Assembly (NCBI RefSeq): GCF_026151205.1
Contig: NC_087082.1
Span: forward strand, 11,169,997 to 11,231,996
Length of the DNA: 62,000 bases
Direction of reading: 5' to 3'
Source: Bolinopsis microptera
Lineage: Eukaryota > Ctenophora > Tentaculata > Lobata > Bolinopsidae
A program made the translations under genes and the position numbers. The notes beneath the pieces are model-generated. The model searched no databases, was not told the DNA's origin, and saw nothing but the letters and a program-made list of their open reading frames with translations. Of the stretch, positions 17,822 to 59,354 are shown one piece after another; within the stretch, counting starts at the first letter, position 1; each line of letters begins with the position of its first letter.

Positions 17822-20800
17822 CTGTTAGAAAGTTATCTAGAATAGGATAAAAAACGTTTTGGGTGCAGTGAGATTTTTAAGGTAATGTGATATTGGGCTT
17901 TCTAAAAATATCTGCTGGGAACCTTCACAAGAAAAATCTCGGAGTCGCATTTTTATCTGAAGACAATTGCACAGTTAACACAATTTCGCAGTAAAATCTT
18001 ACTGCAGGTCTAAGTTTACGAAAGGATTTCTTGGCCCCGGCCTCCTTGTAAGCCACCCCAGGTTCCAGATACTTCCTCATAGGTCCAGTTATCTGTTGTT
18101 TCTTGTAGCTCAGCCAGCTGTCGCCCGTCTTCTTGGGGTTGATCCAGGTGTCTGTACCGGCAATCTTCTTGCTCCGGGAGTCCAGCCTGGTGTGTCTGGC
18201 CGTGTACCGGTTTTCAAACCCCCCGTTTAGCGATAAACGTTTACCACTGATAGACTCTATTGAGACCTGGGTATTATTTAGAGGCTTTTAAGGCCACAGG
18301 GGGGGGGGGGGGGGGGGGGGGGGTCCGAGGTCAATTTTGAGATTTTGAGATATGTTGAAGAGCTCGATCTAAATTTTCAAATGCTTTTGTCCTTACTGTT
18401 AACGGGCTCTTCTCTTGTAGTTTTGGGAACAACGGAAACAACAGTTTAGGAGAAGTGGTTTAAAAATAAACTAACTTTTACGACACGAAACATCTGTATT
18501 TATATTACCTGCCGTGCCGATCTTAATAACTATTCTGACGTCACACTAATGTTTAGTGCTCGAGCTGACCGAGGTTAAATGAGGCTTAGTCCACCTGCTA
18601 TGGTCATGTGACCTAGGTCACATGACTTACAACCAATGGACGGCTACCTCGCCTAGTTGTCAACCAATGGTAAAATTCCAGTATATTTTGCACAGCATCT
18701 CTTAGTCAGAGCGTTCACTTAAATGCATGGTTGAATGAACTGACCCTAATGGTCCTAGAAAGGTCACGATCAAGACACCTGTGTCCTGTTCAATATCATC
18801 TTAATCATAATTATGCAATCCTATTACCTAACATTACCGAAAACAAAGTTTCCTATTTGAAGATATCGCGCGTTGAATTTTGAGGTTTACCTGTAATTCT
18901 ATTGTAAATGAAAACTTTAAATGCAATTGTGTTCAAAATCTATCTTCTTTTTTAGTTTATGACTTAGAACCTTGTAACTTGCCAACAATGTTCTTAAAGG
19001 TATTTTGAGTTTTTGTTATGTAACGATTTATGATATCTTGCTCCAAAGCTGAGATATGAGGTTAACCATGAGCGAGAATTACAAAATTTACAAAATTTAA
19101 AATGGTTAACCTCCTAAAAAGAGTTAGGAGCAAAATTACAACAATCGTTACATAACAAACTTTTAAATTTATGTCAGGAACATAAGTTCCAAATTTGAGG
19201 TGAAATGGATAAAAGCTCTAGGAGAAGATAGGTTTTTGAGGTGGTAAATAAATTGTTCAGGAGAGTCAAAAGACCATGATTCTGAGAAAATATGTTAACC
19301 TCAATTTTCCAACAAATAAAGGACATATAATAGTTCTGTTCACATTGGATGGCCAATTGATACCCATTGATAAGTTTAACTTGTGACGAGAGCAACAAAA
19401 TGTTAAGAACTGGTTATTTGTGAGGTTAACTGATTAAAAAGGCAATAGTTAACCTCAATTTTACGACAAACTAGGCGCTCTGGGGGGCTAAGGGTGGTGT
19501 GCAAGCGTCAGATAGTACGTGGTCTGCCAACTGGCAAAAAACTTTTTTTCGACCTCGGACCCCCCCCCCCCCCCTGTGGCCTTAAAACGTCTATTTAATT
19601 GGGTGACACCTAATTTTCGGGTGACTCGTGAGCTGTGAAACTGTTAGCGTTGAAATTTGAGCTATAACTCAAGCTAGGATTAGTGTGAAACATACTGTGG
19701 GTGGGAAGAAGGGGGGGGGGGGGGGGCGGGTTCATATTTCCAAGTTTCTATGACTACTTTAGATGACGATGTCTTCTCCGGTGAGGTTGAAGCCAGGGCC
19801 CCAATTACAAAGTGACAACATGTCAGCTGCCAGGCTGACCTGTTCATGTTGGGGGGGCGGGGGGGGGGGGGGGGGGGGGGGTGGGAAGAAGAGAATACTC
19901 TACTTATAATCAATGTTATTGGTATTCCTTCAGCGCTTTACCTTGTGGGTAGGAAATCTATCCTTGCCAACATTCTTCCCCTTTTTGTTTCCGTTAGTTT
20001 TGGTCCGTCTAAGTTTAGCGGCCGGCTTGGTAACCTCCTGATTCTCCACATTATTTGTTGGAATTTCAACAGCTTCGGGACCATGTTTAGCCACTGTCTC
20101 CCACTTTTTAAGGTTACTCCTACAGTAAATATAGGTCGTTATTTGGAAGCAAGAGCGCTGTCTTGGTTTTTTGGTTTTTTATAATACGAACAATATACGA
20201 TAAACATTTACTACGTATTTGTTTATTTGTATATTTTTCAAAAAGTTCAATCATAAACCTATAAACTAATAAAACCTAGACAACAGAAATGATTGGAAAA
20301 TATCAGTATATATAACTCACAGTGCCCCCTCGTACATAGGTGAGGTTGATGGCATTAATTCGGAGAGAAGCTTGTAAGCTGGCAAACACACCGAGGTTAT
20401 GAAATCTACCTGAGGTTATCAAGGTTAAATACTGCTAAACACAGAAATCGATCAATTACAAAACCGAAGTTATTCGTTTTACTGTGGGTGGTTCCAAACT
20501 GCTAGTTTGTAAAAGAATCAGCCAACTGGAAAAATAAACCTGGCTTTGAGCTGTTTGGGTTTCTGCTTTAGCACGGTCCATCAAAGGTAGAGGTTCGAAC
20601 CCAAGAGCCTTTTCCTGGTCTCCCTGGAAATGGTTTATTGAATTTATTCGTGCAAAACTGACTATCATAAATTGTAACTGAACTACCAATTTGGTAAAGG
20701 GCTGGCATGTATCAAAATGCATAATAAATATTTGTCATATAAGTGTGCCTGATTGAGAAACTATCCGCTCTACTGCAGTTTAATAAGTTCAGCATAGTAC

Positions 20801-23800
20801 TATGTTTACAGTACAATGTACAATAAGTGCAGTACCTGGTTGTGGAATTCTTCATTTATATGCTCCACAACGATCTTCTGAACATTCCATGGTTTGGTTA
20901 CCGCACAGAGATCACAACAGGTCATGATCAGAGCTCTGAGTCTCTGCTTGTGTTCCCTGTCATCAGAGTTGAACCTGCAGATAAGGTTCATTATAACTGA
21001 CATCAGACAAAATTGATCTTCATATGTTGGATATTTTCAAATTCTAATATCCTGGGCCGGAATTTCAGTTTTGAGGTAAATTGCCGAAGAATGGAAAAAT
21101 CGTATTCTCCCATTTTTTGTCCCATTTTCAGTTTTTAAAGACGGAATTTCCCCGACAGAAATTTCACAGTTTTGACCGAATTTTTGTCCAGAAACTAACT
21201 AGTCAGTCAACTTTAGATGGCATATGACACAATTGAGGTGGTTTACTACAGAACGCTTAATACAAAAAAAGAACATAATGATAAACTTACAAATTCTTGT
21301 TGTGAAGCTCTCTTAAAGTGGTCCTATTGTCGAAGTAAAGAGCAAGATCAGTTGCTATGATAGCGTGCTTCATGATCGCGATTACGTTAACATAGTCATC
21401 TGGCTTCAGATTAGCAAACACGTTCAAATCTTTTTGCTGAAAAATTAAAAGTTTTTTGTCAAACACAGTCTTGTAATGGCACTTTGTTCTTATATTATTA
21501 AAACCTTATCAAAGTTTCCATAGCAAAATGTGAATCAAGCGTTCAATAACAAAATCTATAGTATTGGAGAGTGACTTTTACCATGAGTAACTGGAGGGTC
21601 TGTTCGTAGTGATGATTCTCCATGATGCTGCTGGAGTAGATAGCAGAGAGGGGGTGTGCGGTAAGCTTCATGAAGCTGTTCGTGTAACCTCTGTGGTCTA
21701 GATCATGACAAATGCACCCTACAAATAAGGCTAACATCTGAAAAACAAATCAAGTCAGCCAACAAAGTCAGCCAACAAAGTCTATATTAATAGAACAAGA
21801 AATTTTCTTAATTTGATAGAGATTTCTGCGTTTTTTCGTTCGGCTTATTTGTTTTAATTTTGATGAAAAACAAATCCGTGTTTCGAGTTCATGAATCAGT
21901 TTTGAGCAACTGAGAAACAGAGGCAACACATTAGTGCGGAGGGAGCGTATAAACACTATTGGCCGTTTTCTGCACATATTTGCACTAACAGTAGAGTGGT
22001 TCATTTTACCAAAAGTTGTTCAAATAATTAGACATCATATCTTATTAGTTGCTCTATAGGGTCAGGAACGACCAAAAAAATTTTTTTGACTCTAGTGTTC
22101 CGGATATGGTCCGCACATGCCACGCCCATTTTTATAGCGTTTCTTATACAGGTAAAATAGGGAAAATCGCATTTTTTAACATGAAAGCGTCATTTCTGTG
22201 CTTTGAGACTTTCTACTCTAATATAAATGTGATGATGGCATTTCGTTTAAACATATTTTCAAAACTCTGTGACCACGCCCTGGCCGTGGACCACGCCCCT
22301 ATTTCTTATACACATAAAAACACGAAAATCGCAGATTTTTAAATGATTGGATTGATTTAGAGCTTTGAGACTTTCTACTCGAATATAAATGTGACCCAAG
22401 CATTTCGTTTGAACATGGTTTAAAATTCCTCCCCAGTCCCATTTTCAGTCTTTGCAATAGCCAATATTTGATTACAGTCCTCTTGGACAGCCACTATGGC
22501 AAGTCGATTAACACTCCCAAACCCTCTCAAATTTGGTAATAATTTAGCATCCTCGTACTTGGCTTCCCGAGCAAGCTTCTTCTCGACCACAGCCTTGGTT
22601 TTGAAGTCCCGAGTTGAAGAAATCTGCGCATCCCAGTGATGGAGTAGAAACTGTCTGTCATCTTTATGGACTCTAGAGGTGAAGATGAGGGATCTATTTG
22701 AGATGTCAAAAAGCCCTGTGTCTTGAGGACGTCTCCAAAACCAGCATACTCCCAAACGGACACGACATCGTTCTTCACAGTAACTCTAGCTAACTCTCCC
22801 GCAGCATTACCGAAATTGTGCTCAAGAATAAAGAAGAGTCTCTGTAGAACAACTTGGTTAGTGGGTAGCTTGGAGTCAGGGATTCTGTCGAGGAGCTTTC
22901 CTATCAATGGAATCTCTCTTCTAGGCTTTCTTCGCTTTCCTTTGGAGGTTGACATTGTTGGTTGACTGATAATTACTCATCGTTTTTAGTTCTTTTAAAC
23001 GTTATTGCCGGTGTCAGCACTTACCAGGGTTTGTTATGTGACTCGTGGACGCTACAAGGATGTCAAGGGCCAGATCTTGTTCAACATTCATTGACCATGG
23101 ACCATGGTCCATGGTGTCCATGGTGTCAACGGTATCTTTTGGCTCACATTTCTGGACCTCGTTAGTCTTTAGTCATGTTATGCTGATCCAGTTAGTGACG
23201 AGCTATGAAGTAATCATTCGATCTCATTAATACTGATCCTATCAATGACGATCTATAGAGTTATCAAATTTTAAACCATGTTCAAACGAAATGCTTGGGT
23301 CACATTTATATTCGAGTAGAAAGTCTCAAAGCTCTAAATCAATCCAATCATTTAAAAATCTGCGATTTTCGTGTTTTTATGTGTATAAGAAATAGGGGCG
23401 TGGTCCACGGCCAGGGCGTGGTCACAGAGTTTTGAAAATATGTTTAAACGAAATGCCATCATCACATTTATATTAGAGTAGAAAGTCTCAAAGCACAGAA
23501 ATGACGCTTTCATGTTAAAAAATGCGATTTTCCCTATTTTACCTGTATAAGAAACGCTATAAAAATGGGCGTGGCATGTGCGGACCATATCCGGAACACT
23601 AGAGTCAAAAAAATTTTTTTGGTCGTTCCTGACCCTATAGAGCAACTAATAAGATATGATGTCTAATTATTTGAACAACTTTTGGTAAAATGAACCACTC
23701 TAACTAACAGTTGTTTTTCGAATTTTTTGCACAGTTCGGAACTTCCCGCACAATTTTTCACAATTCTAGTTTCATATTAATCAAAATTGGATCTAACTAT

Positions 23801-26800
23801 TGATAATTCGAATGCTTTCAGGACAATTGGTGGCTGATCATGGATCATTTTAAAACGCCCAGCACCGCCATTATCCTATCCTTGTAATCATAAGATACGG
23901 TAATAATATTACGAAGTATGTTATCAATATATAATTCTGTAATAAATATATGTAATACACACCTCATTAGTAGTAAAGCACATGACTTGGTTTGACTTTA
24001 ATATCGAGTACATACAGTTAGCCACGCAGAAGGCATGTTCCCAATTATGGTACGCTACTTTTCGGTAGTTCTTCCTGAAGATAAAAATGGAGGATTTGAG
24101 CAGTATTCGAGCGTTTATCTTGATGATATAATCACTAAAAGAGTGCATATATTATATAAGCACTTTGATACACAGGATAAAATGGTTAACACCGAATTCT
24201 AACTGTCTAATGATGTAGTATTGGAGATGATCGGTACTAATTTGGTCTTGTCAAAGCATATGAGCACATGATTGTACCATGTATCTGCATCCTATAAAAG
24301 GAGTGGGTAACAAGTATTTGAAATAATTTGCCATAATTTAACGAACTTGACAGTAAGTGTGAATCTAATAAGTAAGTCTCTGTCGTAGAGTCCCGGGAAA
24401 AGGTCCTCAAATAGTCCGATAAAAAGTCTGACTTGAGTCTCCTGACTGCAACTCCACGTGTCAAAATCGTACCTGACATAATAATAATATGGCAACATGT
24501 GGGTCTAAATCATGTGATCCGTATTGGAATTAACCACACGAGAGTAAACATTCAGTATTACTCATAAGAGTGGGCAGTATTCAGGGTAGGTAAACTAGTA
24601 AATAACCTGGAGAGCTGAAAGGAAGAGACCTGCATAGGAGGCAGGGCGGTAATGACGTCACACTCATCCTGTGAACAAACCCGGTAGTAGTTCAAAACGC
24701 TCATGTTTATCTCTCGAGCCGTCAGCATCTGTTAATTAGTATCTGGTTATTTAAACAAGTCGCTGGTTTTCGAGCTTTACTTTTTAGCTTTCGGACAAAG
24801 TGAACCACAATAACTCACTCTAGCCAGCACAAAGTGAACCACAATAACTCACTCTAGCCAGTACAAAGTGAACCACAATAACTCATTCTAGCCAGCACAA
24901 AGTGAACCACAATAACTCACTCTAGCCAGTACAAAGTGAACCACAATAACTCACTCTAGCCAGTACAAAGTGAACCACAATAACTCACTCTAGCGAGTAC
25001 AAAGTGAACCACAATAACTCACTCTAGTCAGTACAAATTGAACCACAATAACTCACTCTAGCGAGTCTCCTTTCCAGATTGTTAGTATAGAGAGCTAGGC
25101 CACAGAAAACTGTCAGCGTGTAAAACGCTCGCTCGTCACTCAGGGAAAATCCTCGCTCCTTGGAAGTATATGTAATCAGTCAACTACCTATGTAATTTGT
25201 TAGCAAATTGACCAATAAGTTCTTGCTATTGAGAACACTCGGCGGTGAATGGTGGTGAAGCAACGTCAGCATTTGGAATGCAGCCCTCTGTTTTATAATA
25301 AACTGGGTTATTCTAACATTCGTGTGTGCAGAAATACCTTAACTCCAAAAATGTTTTGACGTCAATTATGGGGGCCAACTGCAGTTTCTGAGGCTATTTT
25401 CACCTCAATATTAATTAATGTCCAACATAAAAATATAATAAAACTTACAAGTTTTTTATTGACCATTTCCGTGACCCCTATTATTCCCTTATCAGAGTGT
25501 ATTGGTATACACAGTAGATTACGTGTCTTGAAGCCTGTCAGCTTGTCAATCTCCCTGTTTGGATGGAACCGGTTAAGATAATGATATGTCATTGAACCCA
25601 AATTGTTAAATTAATATGCGCACTATTTGTTACTCAGTATTATAAGACTTACGGCGATTAGTTTCTTGCGTTAGGGAAATAGTTGACCCTTACTTCAACA
25701 ATTGACAGGATCAATATTGATCTTTGAAATGTTTACGATTTTCTATCCCAAATTCGGGCACCCGAATATTGCATCTGCACTGCATGACAGGTGATTTCAC
25801 CCACTTACTTATTAAATCGCTCGTCACTGTCCACATCCTCGATCCTGTTAACATTTCCTGTCTGAAAGGTGTCTCCAATAACCCCTTTCTTACTAGGTGT
25901 CCGTATAGTCGAGCTCTGAAACAGACAAATTTTGTCAGAATTTAATGCTTTATTTTAAGAAGATTCGCTTATTGCAACATTTAGAGGCTTAAATAAAAAT
26001 ATAGGCCTTGGCGAATAAATCTCAGGATTACCTTGCAAAAACGTCAGGATTTAAAGCTTTTTTTCATTTAATGGCCTAAAAGACGCTGCTGTCTGATGCT
26101 AAAGTGCAGTTATATTTTTGACTCATGTTTGTGTTATTGATTTTTAGATTTAAAAATAAAATAAAGTGCGCTTTTATAATACAGCTTTATTATTCGAGGT
26201 AATGGATGCAACGAGTGCGAGTGCTCGAAGTGAAAATATAATATTAATGTAATAAAGTTATCTAATATTTAAAACAATATGATAATATGGCTCTCTTATC
26301 TAAAGCAAACCGGCAACCGCCCAGTGGCAGTGTGACGCCTGTTGCATATTGCGTCAAAAAACACCCTTAAAATCATCCTTACATATTACTAAGTGAACCT
26401 ACAAATATTCTAAGTTACTTAGCAGTCTGGTCGTCGTTAATTAACATCTTTCTTGACAATTGTATTTGTGTAGCTAGGAAAAATTAAATTTAAAGTTTGA
26501 GCTGATTTGGTTATTACAAAACGCTAGGACGTCGACCAGTGCATGCTCGACAGTAGATTAAATTTTGAATCGTCCGTTGTCGGATGTGTACAGGATATAC
26601 TAGGATAGTAGTAATGAGAGAGGCAAGGTGATCTTCATTCCTTCAAGCTGTCAAGCAGCAAATTTACCAGTGTTCACGCATATCATTATATAACTTGCTA
26701 CCTTTTAAGGCCAGAGGGGGGGTAAAAGTCGATTTTCCAGTTTTCACATATTTGATTAGAGCTGCTGAAGACGAACAAGAGGAAAAAAACAGGACCGAAA

Positions 26801-29800
26801 TCTGACCTTGCGTTTTTAAGATATCGCGCGCCAAATATTGAGGTTTACATGTAATTACATGTAAAACTTTAACTTAAACTGTAAAAAGTTAAAACGCCCT
26901 AAGTTGAGAAGACTGGCCACACCCAGGAGCTGAAACTTGGCACAAGTGTTCCTTAGACTGTTTTACACAATTCTATTGTACAAAATTTTTATATTTGCTT
27001 CTGTTCTTGAGATATGAGGTTAACTTTACCCCAAATTCAACAGTTTTTCGACAGTTAACCTCATAACTCAAGAACAAAGGCAAATATCAAAATTTTGTAC
27101 AATAGAATTGTGGGTGACAACCCAAGGAACACCTGTGCCAAGTTTCAGCTTCTGGGTGTGGCCAGTATTCTCAACTAAGGGACGTTTGTATGAAAAAACC
27201 TGTTTTGAGTAAAAAGAGTTTTGGTGTTTTTATTTCACTGCCAAAATCTCAAATTGTGCATTATTTTCCGTATTTAGTAGCGTCTCCATACAATTTTTGC
27301 TTTAAGGTGAGAAGATGTTTATTGAGATACTTTATGTTGGGAAAATCAATATCATAAACCAAAATTTGTCTAAAAATGAGGTTAACTATCACGATATTTT
27401 GTAGTAGTAGTAAAAATATGATTGTTAACCTCACTATAGACCATATAACAATGGAATTGGTTTATCAATATATTGTTAGACATGTAATGAAAACATTTGC
27501 CCAGTGTAACAATTAAGATTTTGAGGTTAACATGTGATTGACTGGGCCGATATTCAACAAATGAGAGGTTAACCTCATTTTTTAGCTATTCATGGGTGAA
27601 CTCTTCTACTTATATATGGTCAGTCCTAATCACCTTTGTCTCATGATCATATTTGAGGCATTGGAATACAAATAGATACATCACTGAGATATTGTGGTAC
27701 ATAACAAAAGTAAGAATCTTGTGTAAATAATTCTTAAACTACCAAATGATATGGTTAACCTCATTTTTCAACACTTTCTCGAGATAAAATGAAGTAAATC
27801 AGCACTACATCTATTAAGAATTTTGTATGTCGTAATCTTACGATAAAAATAACAACTCTATCACCTAATCTATTTTCGCTATACCTAAATTAAGAGGTTA
27901 ACCTCATTTAATCACGTTTGGATATTACTTTTTCTGATAATTATGAACCTAAAATTTAGAGTTTACATTTGCTGACCGAAAAAAACAAAAAATTATGGAG
28001 TGTAATAAAATATTAACCTCAATTTTATTAACCTCAATGTTGTATAATCAATTTTGTGAAAATCGGTTAACCTCAATTATAAAAAAAAAGTTAAGCAGCT
28101 ACAAATATGTGAATAGCAGCAATGTTTTTGTCATCGAAAATTAAATTGATTTAGAAAATAATATTTTGGTCGATTTTTTTTGACCCCTTACCCCCCCCTC
28201 TGGCCTTAACCTTCTAGCGATTGGCATTAGTGGACAGTAAGCTAAGAGGTCAGGGGAGAGTGAAACCTTTGAGTTCTTAACTTCCTTTCATTTTATTCCT
28301 TTCATCTTTTAAAGCATTTAATTTCAGAATGGATCTTAAACTTTGTTCCATTTGTCTTTATTCGACCTTTGATATTTTTATGAAATACTCCTTTCATCTT
28401 TTAAGGTATTCATTTGTCTCGAATTTCCTTTTACTTATGGCCTTCTGATGCTACTATAACGGGCACTTTGCACAATTATTTTGTCTTTAGTAAATTTATA
28501 CAGGTATGTTAGTTCCTCACAAAACAATTACTATTAGATATATCGTACCGGAGTGTTAAAATTGGAATTATAATCGCAGGACAACAAAGCTATTTTCATT
28601 ACTCTTGTTAAACTACTCGTTATTTCTCTTGTCAATTACAGCAACTCTCTTGTTCTAAGTTGGTCTAAGTTGGTCTAAGTTGGTCTAAGTTGCTCTTAGT
28701 TGGTCTAAGTTGGTCTAAATTGGTCTAAATTGGTCTTTTACATTACAACAAATTCAACTAAGTGGCGATTCATACTTCGCTACCGAAATCATAATAAGCT
28801 ACCACACTAGAAAAAGACTAAGTTATAACACTAATTTTCCAATTAAACTGGTGAATGACATTTAACAATTAATTAACATCTAGTAACCAGAAATTATTAT
28901 TCATTCAGGTAATATTTCTGGTAGAAATATAACCTGAATTTTCATATTTACTTGACGTTAATATTTTAATGAAATAAAATGATCGAGTTTATAATTACAT
29001 AACGCCTGTGTTACTTAGTCAGTGCCAGTTTAATGAAGTGGTGACAACTGACAAGAACAGTTAGGAGTGGCGTGGTGGGGGGGGGGGGGGGGGGGGGGGG
29101 GCAACCTCATTTTTGTCTATCGATATTCGACCAAAAGTTAAGGAATAAAGGGGTCATTTTCATCATTTGGTCAAAATCGGTCAAAATCGAAAAATTAAAA
29201 CATAACTATTAGTATATAATATAATAGCTGTACAGTGTACTTGCTAATTAATCAGAGGACGGCAATCACGATGGCGATGTTTATTTTCACCATAACTCAA
29301 GTTTTAGCTGTTTTTAAGGCTTAAAAACAGCAATGCCAATCGATGCCATGCCCATTTGACTAAAAGTTGGGGAATAAATGGGCAACAGGGTTGTCCCCCA
29401 CCCCTAGTTTTTTAACCATGGTTTCACTGCGCTAAATATGCTAAACGATCATTTTATAATTTAATCATTTCTAAAAGGTTTCTTTGAACAGTTTCGTTTA
29501 ATATAGAGTATAGACATCTCTCCCTGCTTTAATTTCATGTAGTTCCAAATGCTTTTCGAATATTGAAGATTACGCCTCAGCTAAATTTGCTTGAAATGGA
29601 ATGGATGGATCATAATTCTATTGCACTATTAAACTTACGCTAAAAACTTGATTAAAGCTTTTCGCGTCTCATCTTCCTCTTAATTTTATTGTTCAGCCAT
29701 TAAGCTGACTATTGTGTTTCTGAGGTTTTATGTCTTTTAATTTCCAAGCTACCATTATATTCTCAGTATAGTCTGTTTAATAATATTTTCTCCTACTTCT

Positions 29801-56414: not shown

Positions 56415-59354
56415 TTTTCGGATGGCTCAGGTCCCACCTCAATGTTTAACTGTTTTGACTTACCAAGTTTGCTCTAAACTTGCTATGAAGACAGTATCTC
56501 GACTTGATTGAAGCTGCGATCCTTCATATTTTAACATTTAACACAAAGTCATAATCCGCAATGAAAATCTTCAGTTCATTTTTATTTTTAACTATAATTA
56601 CAAACAAACGGGGATTTTGTAAAGAATAAAATTTTATTTGTTTAAGATTGTCCGATGGTCGGGTCCCTTGCTACTTATCTGATCAAGTGTCCGTGGTATT
56701 AAACAGGAGTAGTTACGTGTATCTAATTGAAACTTAAAACACAGCAAACGGTCTAGTCAAAAGTGAAACTGTACTTCGAACAGCGTTAGCTCATTAGTAA
56801 ACGTCGATACTGTTTAATGGTTGCCACACTCGACCATCACGGATCCTGTCCAGACTTTATTTTAAACTCTCAGCTAACTGTTGTAATCAACTTAATATAT
56901 ATCATTATTGTAAGTAAAAATTTTCACACGATTATGTTTCTCATCAATTAGCTGATCATGTACAATGTTAAAAGCATCTACGGGAAATACGTTCAGTTAC
57001 TAGTATAACGTATATAATGCAAGATTTAAATGACTTCTAACAAGCGAATATTGACCTTGACACGAAATTATGACTTGAAACTATAAAAAAGTTGGAATTT
57101 GTTTAAAAACAGAGCAAGTCGCAATCCTGACATTGGCTTTGATGCTACAAACTACCCGGCAATAATTGATGATTTTCATCACTTCAGAATCTCCGATACA
57201 TTTGTAAATAGTTGTACTGGTGATTGCACAAGCGTTACTGGTGATTACACTGGCTTGTGATGCTGCCGGAATTAGTGTGTGAACACTTCCGGAACTTGTA
57301 GCAGTACACTTATAATTTGCACTTTCTATTGTACCTGATCAGTTGACAGGATGACAGTAAGTTAACCTTATTTAGTTAAATTAAGAACATATTAAGTTAA
57401 ATAATAACGAGATGTTATTGAAAGTTGATGTGACTCTGAACGGATTGGGGATAGAGGAAGTTCGCTTAAAATTATCAAATCTTACATCGAGGTATACGTG
57501 TTGACAGAGCGTTTGCTCAGTAACCACGTGACAACTCCATAGCAACCCAATCATCAGCGCCGGTTAACCTCACGTGGTAATTGTTGATCAAATGGGAAAA
57601 AAATGGCTATAAACTTAATGGGTTAATTTAGTTAATGTCCGGCGGAGCTGTAGTTTTTTCCTAAAGTACAGGCGAGGGTCTACAACAGGGGTAGTGTGGG
57701 TTTGTACCACTGTACCTTGTTAGTGTCAACTTGACGCACTAATTGGTTTTAACTTGTGAAATGACGATGTAAACTCTGTGTTGTAAGGTATTTTATTTTT
57801 GAGGCCTAGTTATGACAAGGTCAACTGTAACTTCCAGGCCGTTTTAACCGTTAAATGCACAATGAACATAGTTTTAATCCGGCTATTATATAAAATATTT
57901 TTGGTGCTTGCAACCTGAAAAATATCATAAAATGGGGAAAAAGTAGAAGTTCACAGGGAAAAATGTAGTTTTAACAAAATGGTTATATAATTCAGCGTGA
58001 AAACCCGCGGCGCCGACAAATTACCCACCTAGGCATTGACAAATTAATTTCTATAATGAGCCTGGTCCGGTTGGTAAATAAGCCTAATCACCACTATATA
58101 TTGGTAAAATTTCTGTCTCTCTGCAAACTAGTTATAATAATACAACCGTGGCAATTTGACCTAAAATGACCCGCAAGTATAATTTGCAGCTATACTATTT
58201 TTACGTGATGCTTAGAAGAAAAACAAGAATACTTTTAATTTATATTTGTAGTTGGCCAAAGTTGAAACCTGGGCTCTTTGTACACATGAACATCAAAACG
58301 TCGGGGAGGACGACCATGAAACAACAAGATTATACAGAGGAAACGCGGACAAAACTACCGAGATTTAAAGCAAAGTAAAGGTAATAATAGTAAAGGTAAT
58401 TAGTAATATAATATAATATACTATTATCAAGCTTTCATTTCCATCTGTTTTTACCTGACGGACTCTAAAACTCAGATGTTCCACACGTATTATAACACAA
58501 TAAACTAGGAAAAATATCCACCAGAAATGTTCAGCATAATTAAATATTCACCGTAGAATATAAAAATCCACTAAATCACATCTTCACGCCGGAACAAACA
58601 TGGTTAAAAACAATGAATATGGCGGCTATCTTATACGAAGCTTTATGAGAATATCTGAAGACCCATTCTAGAACTTCTATCACCTAGCGACACCTCAGCG
58701 TCACTCGCAAACATGAACACCCTATTTATGTGTACCATATTCACATTTAAAAGGTTTGTAGACACGAGCGTTATTAATTATGCATGTTTTCCAATAAGGA
58801 ACTACAAACCTGCGGCTGAACAACCATGGAAAATTAACCACTCCCCCTTGGAACGTATATTTAATTTAATCTTTTCAAATTGAATTTGAACAGAATAGAA
58901 CAAACAGTTTCAGTACACTGCATGGTCACTAAACGAAGAACAGAGGAACTGGAATGCAGATCTTACACCAGATAGTCTAAGATATGAAGTAACCTATCCG
59001 GGAAGGATCAAACCCCACAACAACCTTATGAACATATTTTCTGCATTTAAGAAATTAAGCTTCATTGTTTCTAAATTAGGAACTTGTAAGACGTGTCCAC
59101 TATATTAAAGTCACTATTGTGACTATATTAATACACAAATGAGACCGAGAGACGTTAGCTGCAACTGAGCACTTAGCTGTGAGCTAATGCTTGGAGAAAA
59201 ATTCCACTTGCTGGGGATACTTGGACCAAATTGTGATGTATGTGGTTTGAAATTGGCTAAATTACTCTATTGCTTTGGGAGGTAGTCGACAATTTAGATT
59301 TGAGGATGTGGTGCGCCTGTCTCTGTGACGTTGTTTCTTTAGTCTTTGGGATGG
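52384..59354. other. No gene recognised; may hold the 5' exon(s) and promoter of the phosphodiesterase
   Basis: Good minus-strand donor-like sites occur at 53830 (CTTG|GTGAGT) and 56460 (CTTG|GTAAGT) but neither exon frame joins exon 1 or 2; they could be untranslated first exons. A frame without ATG is open on the plus strand at 53770-54095. Confidence 0.4.
56321..56414. repeat. Poly-C tract (~94 bp)
   Basis: Nearly uninterrupted C (one AG). Length is probably uncertain in the assembly. Other long G/C homopolymers occur at 18299-18323, 19560-19574, 19710-19726, 19855-19881, 29077-29101, 38060-38074 and 5742-5762. Confidence 0.9.

Follow-up and report, generated by a model that had tools for sequence, protein, structure and literature searches.

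Two families of TTAA-flanked MITEs in Bolinopsis microptera fit the Kolobok superfamily and keep an array of a putative transposase-binding word

The window, that is, the whole 62,000-nucleotide stretch of Bolinopsis microptera DNA under analysis, holds two MITEs, element 1 (family A) and element 2 (family B), each with TTAA on either side and inverted ends made of TTAAGGCCASAG and a G run (Table 1). These ends are exact and 100% complementary, over 26 nt in element 1 (TTAAGGCCACAG plus G run) and over 18 nt in element 2 (TTAAGGCCAGAG plus G run). The word GAGGTTAAC was observed 17 times on the two strands of the window, as against 0.42 expected from shuffles; five of these exact copies lie in element 1, 11 in element 2, and one is isolated at 57563. 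Both elements have a central inverted repeat with the motif at its tip, and both carry AAGATATCGCGCG together with GAGGTTTAC. Stop-to-stop frames reach at most 79 codons in each element, leaving no capacity to encode a transposase. All these traits had been described in a previous sequence-only reading, with motif counts of about 5 and at least 10, and were borne out. That reading also gave the correct edges for both elements, but the extent of element 1 includes a later insertion: the element is an approximately 857-bp MITE interrupted by a nested insert of 437 bp. Alignments of copies elsewhere to element 1 break off at query position 127 and resume at 565, overlapping by about 4 bp, and the insert is covered by no other match among those listed for element 1.

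Table 1. Coordinates in the window of the two MITEs and their parts
Feature	Position	Strand	Remark
Family A MITE (element 1)	18288..19585	+	Window copy 1298 bp with nested insert; TTAA at both edges (18288-18291, 19582-19585)
Left terminal repeat, element 1	18288..18323	+	TTAAGGCCACAG + G run
Right terminal repeat, element 1	19560..19585	-	C run + CTGTGGCCTTAA
Nested 437-bp insert, element 1	18397..18833	.	TG...CA ends, solo-LTR-like
TTAC duplication around nested insert	18393-18396, 18834-18837		
Subterminal island AAGATATCGCGCG...GAGGTTTAC, family A left-type end	18860..18890	+	
Central inverted repeat, element 1	18988..19183	.	Arms 18988-19047/19124-19183, 72%; GAGGTTAAC tip 19058-19066 +, 19105-19113 -
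GAGGTTAAC site, element 1	19294..19302	-	
GAGGTTAAC site, element 1	19422..19430	+	Homologous site of another copy is the L068 insertion point
Inward subterminal GAGGTTAAC, right-type end, element 1	19448..19456	-	104 nt inside C run
Family B MITE (element 2)	26705..28209	+	1505 bp; TTAA at both edges (26705-26708, 28206-28209)
Left terminal repeat, element 2	26705..26722	+	TTAAGGCCAGAG + G run
Right terminal repeat, element 2	28192..28209	-	
Subterminal island AAGATATCGCGCG...GAGGTTTAC, element 2	26818..26848	+	GAGGTTTAC 118 nt inside G run
Long central inverted repeat, element 2	26897..27181	.	Arms 26897-27025/27053-27181, 88%; GAGGTTAAC tip 27016-27024 +, 27054-27062 -
Tip site, element 2	27016-27024	+	294 nt inside G run
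Inverted GAGGTTAAC pair, element 2	27378..27432	.	27378-27386 +, 27424-27432 -; kept in 3 subfamily consensuses
GAGGTTAAC and palindrome GAGGTTAACCTC, element 2	27523..27576	.	GAGGTTAAC 27523 +; GAGGTTAACCTC 27565-27576
GAGGTTAAC site, element 2	27754..27762	-	
Palindrome GAGGTTAACCTC, element 2	27894..27905	.	
Inward subterminal GAGGTTAAC, right-type end, element 2	28066..28074	-	117 nt inside C run

A genome search with the end sequence, as that reading had proposed, returned 508 exact copies of TTAAGGCCASAGGGGG and none of the reversed word. Counts were 3584 vs 1691 for GAGGTTAAC and 248 vs 11 for GAGGTTAACCTC sites. Sixty-two of the 68 loci fetched have both ends with no mismatch to TTAAGGCCA/TGGCCTTAA; among the other six, L067 has both ends but exceeds the 7-kb pairing limit, and five show one end or none in the stretch. 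Since the best-scoring copies were sampled, the sample leans to intact elements. L003 and L004 are one element. Apart from element 1, paired family A copies measure 823-866 bp. Similarity running past the TTAA, or an equal motif density in ordinary introns, had been named as observations that would speak against the families; neither was seen. Similarity among copies ends at the TTAA, with unrelated flanks, and paired copies hold 462 motifs in 72,238 element bases vs 2 in 160,458 flank bases, a background level (L065 left out, L003/L004 counted once). One of the two flank motifs (L068) falls inside an outer copy. The search for empty sites was also successful, yielding two with a single TTAA: one at L062 compared with a repeat at L050 (87% over 519 nt), the other at L068, which is inserted inside another family A copy. 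Insertion shows a mild preference for GTTAAC, with G at 43/122 flank positions vs 18%, and GAGG ahead of the target TTAA is absent from the wider insertion target of the copies. The TTAA core of GAGGTTWAC resembles this target. These sequences are identified as MITEs by their inverted ends, the duplicated target and numerous near-identical copies in unrelated flanks, and their lack of coding capacity together with their many copies indicates that they are non-autonomous.

Kolobok elements duplicate TTAA and have 5'-RR and YY-3' termini (PMC9587614). With their GG...CC termini and TTAA duplication, the MITEs fit the Kolobok superfamily, and not piggyBac, as judged from their sequence. The idea of a new class of element was not upheld, such MITEs being known from Xenopus as T2 (PMC6004289). 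The genome contains 22 Kolobok transposase matches, and its Kolobok genes include a 796-aa ORF with a THAP domain, present in three copies 99% alike; a divergent KolX gene (P2RX7_C, E 1.4e-15) lies upstream of it in the copy scanned, and its flank is 99.5% identical in a second copy. Another THAP protein, L076 (738 aa), is not among the 22 matches. No transposase-bearing copy could be linked to the MITE ends over the end positions listed for C1 and for C2 to 18.9 Mb (right-type end positions were listed as far as C6 7.4 Mb), and none of the exact ends listed lies within 26 kb of the two Kolobok copies on C1. Likewise, the upstream sequence read for the Kolobok families L074/L075 and L085 (1.56 and about 0.8 kb) contains no GAGGTTAA, and the motif is absent from the 1.56 kb read upstream of the 796-aa family.

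The sequence-only reading had also expected a larger copy encoding a transposase. Larger copies do exist, but no transposase appeared in the parts read. L065 (6754 bp) is a family B palindrome plus an unrelated inserted element with an 8-bp duplication (GATTTCGA) and 331-bp inverted arrays; the dispersal of the 331-bp unit and the 8-bp duplication speak against an internal amplification like that of Xenopus Xmix/Xstir. L066 (2788 bp) holds a minisatellite and L067 a LINE (named by eye). In a 17.6-kb end pair on C2, the approximately 5.3 of 17.6 kb sampled contained LINE-like reverse transcriptases (by eye) and no transposase.

The motif words keep a fixed register at the ends. Families A and B are barely alike at their left-type ends, and both have GAGGTTTAC at 118 nt and GAGGTTAAC at 294 nt inside the G run. 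When the left-type ends of an A copy and a B copy were compared at equal offset, 35 windows reached at least 10/12, as against at most 4 at 160 other offsets. In 59 of 64 left-type ends GAGGTTTAC stands at exactly 118, and genome-wide an inward GAGGTTAAC lies at the right-type distance in 184 ends (control, 0). Overall, inward GAGGTT(T/A)AC lies at 118 and mostly 294-305 nt in left-type ends, and at 104 or about 115 nt, plus some 155-170 nt further in, in right-type ends; further copies inside the elements often form inverted pairs or a perfect palindrome. Six of the 129 ends examined lack such a word within 140 nt. L072 lacks any exact GAGGTTAAC, carrying just GAGGTTTAC at each end, and a single exact GAGGTTAAC is present in L070; both stand between TTAA despite so few motifs, indicating that the full array is not needed.

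We then have the question of how well the word is kept. Consensuses of three subfamilies, built from 25 copies (L011, L014, L020 and L031 left out, then included again for the mutation, shared-variant, TTAA-retention and register counts), were identical at 11/11 sites and 87/87 motif columns, as against 88, 76 and 74% identity elsewhere; shifting the columns equalled this conservation in 1/1451, 0/1451 and 0/1463 cases. Shared variants, within subfamilies and family A, affected 0/306 motif columns vs 158/4705 others (p 6e-5). TTAA within motifs was retained in all three subfamilies (9/9), as against 1/14, 1/15 and 1/12 outside motifs; other A/T-only 4-mers were retained in 90/292 cases (reference B0), and TTAA loss outside motifs was not clearly faster than theirs (p 0.07, 0.025, 0.12). 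Private mutations were also rarer in the motif (13/3750 cells vs 443/57,828 others, odds ratio 0.45, p 0.002), so that the conservation may be due in part to a lower mutation rate. By our own arithmetic, however, about 9 changes would still be expected in the 87 columns at 0.45 times the 24% divergence, and 0 were seen. The conservation looks like selection for mobility, and a short word left unchanged while the remainder drifted is probably the landing site of the moving enzyme. The GAGGTTAAC array most probably consists of multiple putative transposase-binding sites, subterminal as well as internal. Conserved words and spacing do give it the look of a protein-binding array, as the sequence-only reading had proposed; the binding itself we infer.

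Taken together, these data make it probable that the elements are Kolobok-type MITEs, mobilised in trans by a transposase of that superfamily that would be encoded elsewhere and whose putative binding site is the motif, which would be kept for that reason. By the habit of the superfamily, the enzyme would cut between TTAA and GGCCASAG followed by about 8 G, and reinsertion would occur at TTAA, preferably GTTAAC, with the duplication and preference observed above. Each end usually comprises the terminal repeat and inward GAGGTT(T/A)AC at its conserved distances, this word being the most likely specific binding site of the transposase, perhaps via a THAP zinc finger. By analogy with the THAP-bound sites and subterminal repeats of the P element, the bound word would load and pair the two ends. 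Copies losing it may move less and leave fewer descendants, which would account for the observed pattern of a stable word amid drift.

An alternative, which we find unlikely, is that a host transcription or chromatin factor binds the motif of what would still be Kolobok MITEs, the array being kept for locus opening, transcription or replication. The spread of sites throughout the element, not near the ends only, is consistent with this, inverted pairs and perfect palindromes would suit a dimeric protein, and regulatory roles of T2-MITEs have been discussed for Xenopus Kolobok (PMC6004289). Yet a host benefit would act on inserted copies, whereas private motif mutations do occur and shared, propagated ones do not; moreover, the subterminal register at both ends points to end recognition.

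It is very unlikely that the elements are piggyBac MITEs, with a motif irrelevant to the superfamily. piggyBac ends usually begin with C (CCY or similar), whereas the MITE ends start with GGCC and follow the Kolobok rule. The TTAA target, which is also that of Sola3, is shared with piggyBac, and the genome has 26 piggyBac transposase matches, one family consisting of four ORFs of 678-681 aa. Repeated subterminal binding sites are known, too, from piggyBat (PMC11707139). Nevertheless, one piggyBac copy, whose end was not located, has neither TTAAGGCC nor the motif in the 236 bases that precede its first ATG, and no exact MITE end among those listed lies near the copy at C2:389475.

We give still less credit to the notion that elements inserting into each other's TTAA left the motifs as scars, or used them as landing pads, with the array a by-product. 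The sequence-only reading had raised preferred self-insertion, and there is one real event, L068 sitting exactly at CAG-TTAA-CCTC of a family A motif, along with the mild preference for GTTAAC, the motif core. Beyond this the case is anecdotal, being one event in a locus fetched for its close-set ends; the wider target has no GAGG before TTAA, and a by-product would leave the 87/87 columns and the fixed spacing unexplained. Least credible is the view that the conservation is an artefact, produced by a mutational cold spot or by gene conversion between nearly identical copies. The rarity of private mutations in the motif would favour this view, but conversion would homogenise flanks, and the 80 nt around the conserved sites are 50-96% identical between subfamilies, while near-miss words (GAGGTTAAT) turn over.

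Returning to the Kolobok reading, a bolder and less likely version is that GAGGTTWAC is the Kolobok transposase word, that long arrays help MITEs compete for the enzyme and that the TTAA core also serves target capture. If so, one word would serve end recognition, loading and target capture, and MITEs would be transposon parasites tuned by array size. A testable prediction is that a Kolobok transposase recognises GAGGTTWAC through its THAP domain or through another of its domains. Hundreds of copies in several subfamilies make up a natural mutagenesis record, in which a nine-base word is kept at fixed places amid drift, and this pattern suggests that, in the moving lineage, selection acts on the non-coding interiors of MITEs, usually treated as filler. 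End recognition by Kolobok transposases is, to our knowledge, little understood. In the open literature, as covered by titles and the start of abstracts outside Repbase and subscription journals, we found no account of these families or of such an array in Kolobok.

In Ac/Ds and En/Spm, which belong to other superfamilies, the protein encoded by the element binds a short word repeated many times in either orientation, and the arrays are limited to the outer few hundred bp. piggyBat and piggyBac differ from our elements in terminal bases and in motifs. They resemble them in the TTAA target and in repeated subterminal binding motifs, some of them palindromic (PMC11707139). Xenopus T2-MITEs (Xmix and others), presumed non-autonomous Kolobok, share the TTAA target and RR ends, and are likewise short, with many copies, young members and Kolobok transposases in the genome; their ends are AGGRR instead of GGCCASAG plus G run, and the available part of the source makes no mention of a conserved internal word array (PMC6004289). 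The Kol0 lineage (Kolobok-1_XT group) follows the same TTAA and RR/YY rules (PMC9587614) and has copies with a THAP-transposase and a KolX-like gene in the B. microptera genome itself, whereas the window elements code for nothing and no Kol0 copy is tied to their ends. Finally, the P element and the zebrafish THAP9 transposon have an 8-bp target duplication, as opposed to the 4-bp TTAA found here, other ends, and one subterminal repeat per end with no array. Yet the layout of the MITE ends, a terminal repeat followed at a fixed distance by an inward subterminal repeat, is like that of the P element, which has a terminal repeat, an internal THAP-bound 10-bp site and a subterminal inverted repeat about 100 bp in, and the THAP9 transposon has its subterminal inverted repeat 400 bp in (PMC7776569).

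Elements 1 and 2, the family-A and family-B MITEs of the window, proved to be real and to lie where the sequence-only reading had placed them, both positions and inverted ends being checked in the window. Their region contains minus-strand pieces of a gene that, judged by eye, is phosphodiesterase-like, one of these pieces being an ORF, and an intronic location is therefore plausible. The genome holding the window measures 264.65 Mb in 232 contigs and, from its gene and retroelement content, is eukaryotic. There, the best 40 of 342 candidates comprised element 1 and 39 other copies at 92-99% identity. Among the matches listed, query positions 128-564 of element 1 were covered by its own match only; this segment is a later insert into the window copy and, from its sequence, looks like a solo LTR. 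For element 2, scoring covered the best 40 of 335 candidates, among them close copies (95-99% identity, mostly full length), a second group at 84-89%, and a third of partial likeness (left part 69-72%, right part 87-88%). The window also holds a tandem repeat and another palindromic element, apparently young.

Features of the window and of related genomic loci (window positions unless labelled)
Feature	Position	Size	Description
Element 1	18288-19585		family-A MITE
Insert within element 1	18397-18833	437 bp	begins TG, finishes CA, TTAC either side
Long G runs	19710-19726; 19851-19885		outside the elements
Phosphodiesterase-like ORF	21543-21749		minus strand; presumed gene piece
Palindromic element	21992-22427 / 23267-23702	436-nt inverted repeat	100% complementary; 839-nt spacer
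ORF in palindromic element	22527-22976	149 aa	minus strand
Tandem repeat	24795-25066	34-bp unit	8 copies, 95% alike
Element 2	26705-28209		family-B MITE
Element with inverted tandem arms	L065 827-6894	331-bp units	8-bp duplication GATTTCGA; one end CAGTAGATGAATCC
Swollen A- and B-type elements	G000 C2:13484832-13502410 (L077-L083); L067		LINE-like retroelements (judged by eye) inside
Kol0-kind Kolobok transposon (L074 / L086)	C1:16945300-16948260		THAP transposase (x3, 99% alike) and divergent KolX-like gene

Genome-wide, the exact end TTAAGGCCASAGGGGG occurred 260 times forward and 248 times in reverse, against 0 for the reversed control word. Paired ends were recovered in 62 of 68 fetched loci, which were the best-scoring copies; each had TTAA at both edges, and flanks were unlike one another across the 62. 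As for the six unpaired loci, both ends are present in L067, which is too long for the script (7-kb limit), and L001, L002, L021, L023, and L063 yielded one end or none. Both empty sites (n=2) carried a single TTAA. In 61 distinct insertions, a G preceded TTAA in 43/122 cases versus 0.18 for background TTAA (p 9e-6). Apart from two ends with only one G, the G run of the ends was 5-29 long, with a mode of 8 (47/122 ends). Poly-G seems common around the window elements, so the run may grow by slippage.

Taking the inner boundary of the G run as the reference point, we found the repeated nine-base word GAGGTTWAC in register with the ends. We examined 129 ends, 64 left-type, 59 right-type, and 6 others, leaving out 3 with a broken G run. 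Left-type ends carried GAGGTTTAC at 118 (59/64) and the exact motif GAGGTTAAC 176-187 further in (54/64). In right-type ends, GAGGTTAAC stood at 104-105 (28/59), at 115 (24/59), or elsewhere from 111 to 124 (7/59), the next one following 151-173 further in at 55/59. Six of the 129 ends had no such word within 140 nt (L010, L011, L020, L035, L065, and L070); L035 has a nested insert and L065 an insertion. Global alignment of left-type positions 1-117 and 128-292 between one A and one B0 (a family-B subfamily) copy was no better than shuffled. At equal offset, these ends had common islands at 91-135 and 284-305, with 35 windows of at least 10/12; none of 160 other offsets gave more than 4. In a genome-wide pattern count, 184 right-type ends had a correctly spaced word, against 0 for the control.

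In the fetched copies, GAGGTTAAC was ~500-fold denser inside elements than in their flanks (462 in 72,238 vs 2 in 160,458 bases, L065 left out; counting the single element L003/L004 twice gives 473 in 73,751). The genome holds 3584 occurrences versus 1691 of the reversed word, an excess of ~1900 that is roughly the content of some 250 elements. By consensus, three B subfamilies (7, 7, and 11 copies) shared 11/11 motif sites at homologous places, and 87/87 motif columns were identical in every comparison versus identities of 0.878, 0.762, and 0.741 outside the motif, with sequence flanking single sites down to 50%. TTAA was kept in all three at 9/9 places within motifs versus 1/12 to 1/15 outside. 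Since other A/T-only 4-mers were kept in 90/292, TTAA outside motifs fared only slightly worse, if at all (p 0.07, 0.025, 0.12). Within these subfamilies and family A, which represent few independent lineages, variants common to at least two copies struck 0/306 motif columns versus 158/4705 ordinary ones. Private variants did strike the motif, in 13/3750 cells versus 443/57,828 ordinary cells. This is the pattern that selection on still-moving copies would leave. That private variants were scarcer in the motif (p 0.002) nevertheless calls for caution, as this may reflect part selection, part mutation rate.

Relatives differed in architecture. L069 (691 bp) is a single palindrome of two left-type ends with a motif pair at its tip, L072 resembles it without exact GAGGTTAAC, and mosaics built from A- or B-type ends are seen in L070, L071, and L073. 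Thus, an element with only left-type ends has moved, GAGGTTTAC is the most regularly present part, and the inner array was dispensable at least once. Separately, the 331-bp unit of L065 occurred, among the matches listed, on at least 10 of 13 large contigs, often in minus-then-plus arrays. The sampled part of the swollen C2 copy held what we take, by eye, to be at least two different reverse-transcriptase ORFs.

TTAA target duplication is common to Kolobok and piggyBac. According to PMC9587614, Kolobok termini are RR...YY; the GG...CC termini of the window elements fit this pattern, which tells Kolobok apart from piggyBac. The genome contains Kolobok genes. A 796-aa ORF with THAP, present in three copies 99% identical, matches PF20700 in its middle part (E 3.7e-6; 26.6 bits, cut-off 26.5), and its opposite-strand upstream neighbour matches PF20478 P2RX7_C (E 1.4e-15); PMC9587614 describes such a resemblance to the C-terminal part of P2X7 for KolX in the Kol0 lineage. 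None of the 22 Kolobok (fragments included) or 26 piggyBac transposase matches in the genome could be tied to GGCCASAG ends, and no autonomous partner emerged among them, so the elements are putatively Kolobok by ends and target only.

What might bind GAGGTTWAC? GAGGTTWAC would be the loading site of the transposase and the G-rich terminal repeat its cutting site, as proposed by analogy with P elements, in which, according to PMC7776569, a 10-bp internal site is bound by the THAP domain, with another subterminal repeat ~100 bp in. The chief alternative is a host protein instead of the transposase; of the data, only the register and the way selection has acted speak to the choice, and they favour end recognition. 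The MITEs similarly carry GAGGTTWAC, a putative binding site, at set distances. Their repetition of it also recalls piggyBat, where repeated subterminal sites tune activity up or down (PMC11707139).
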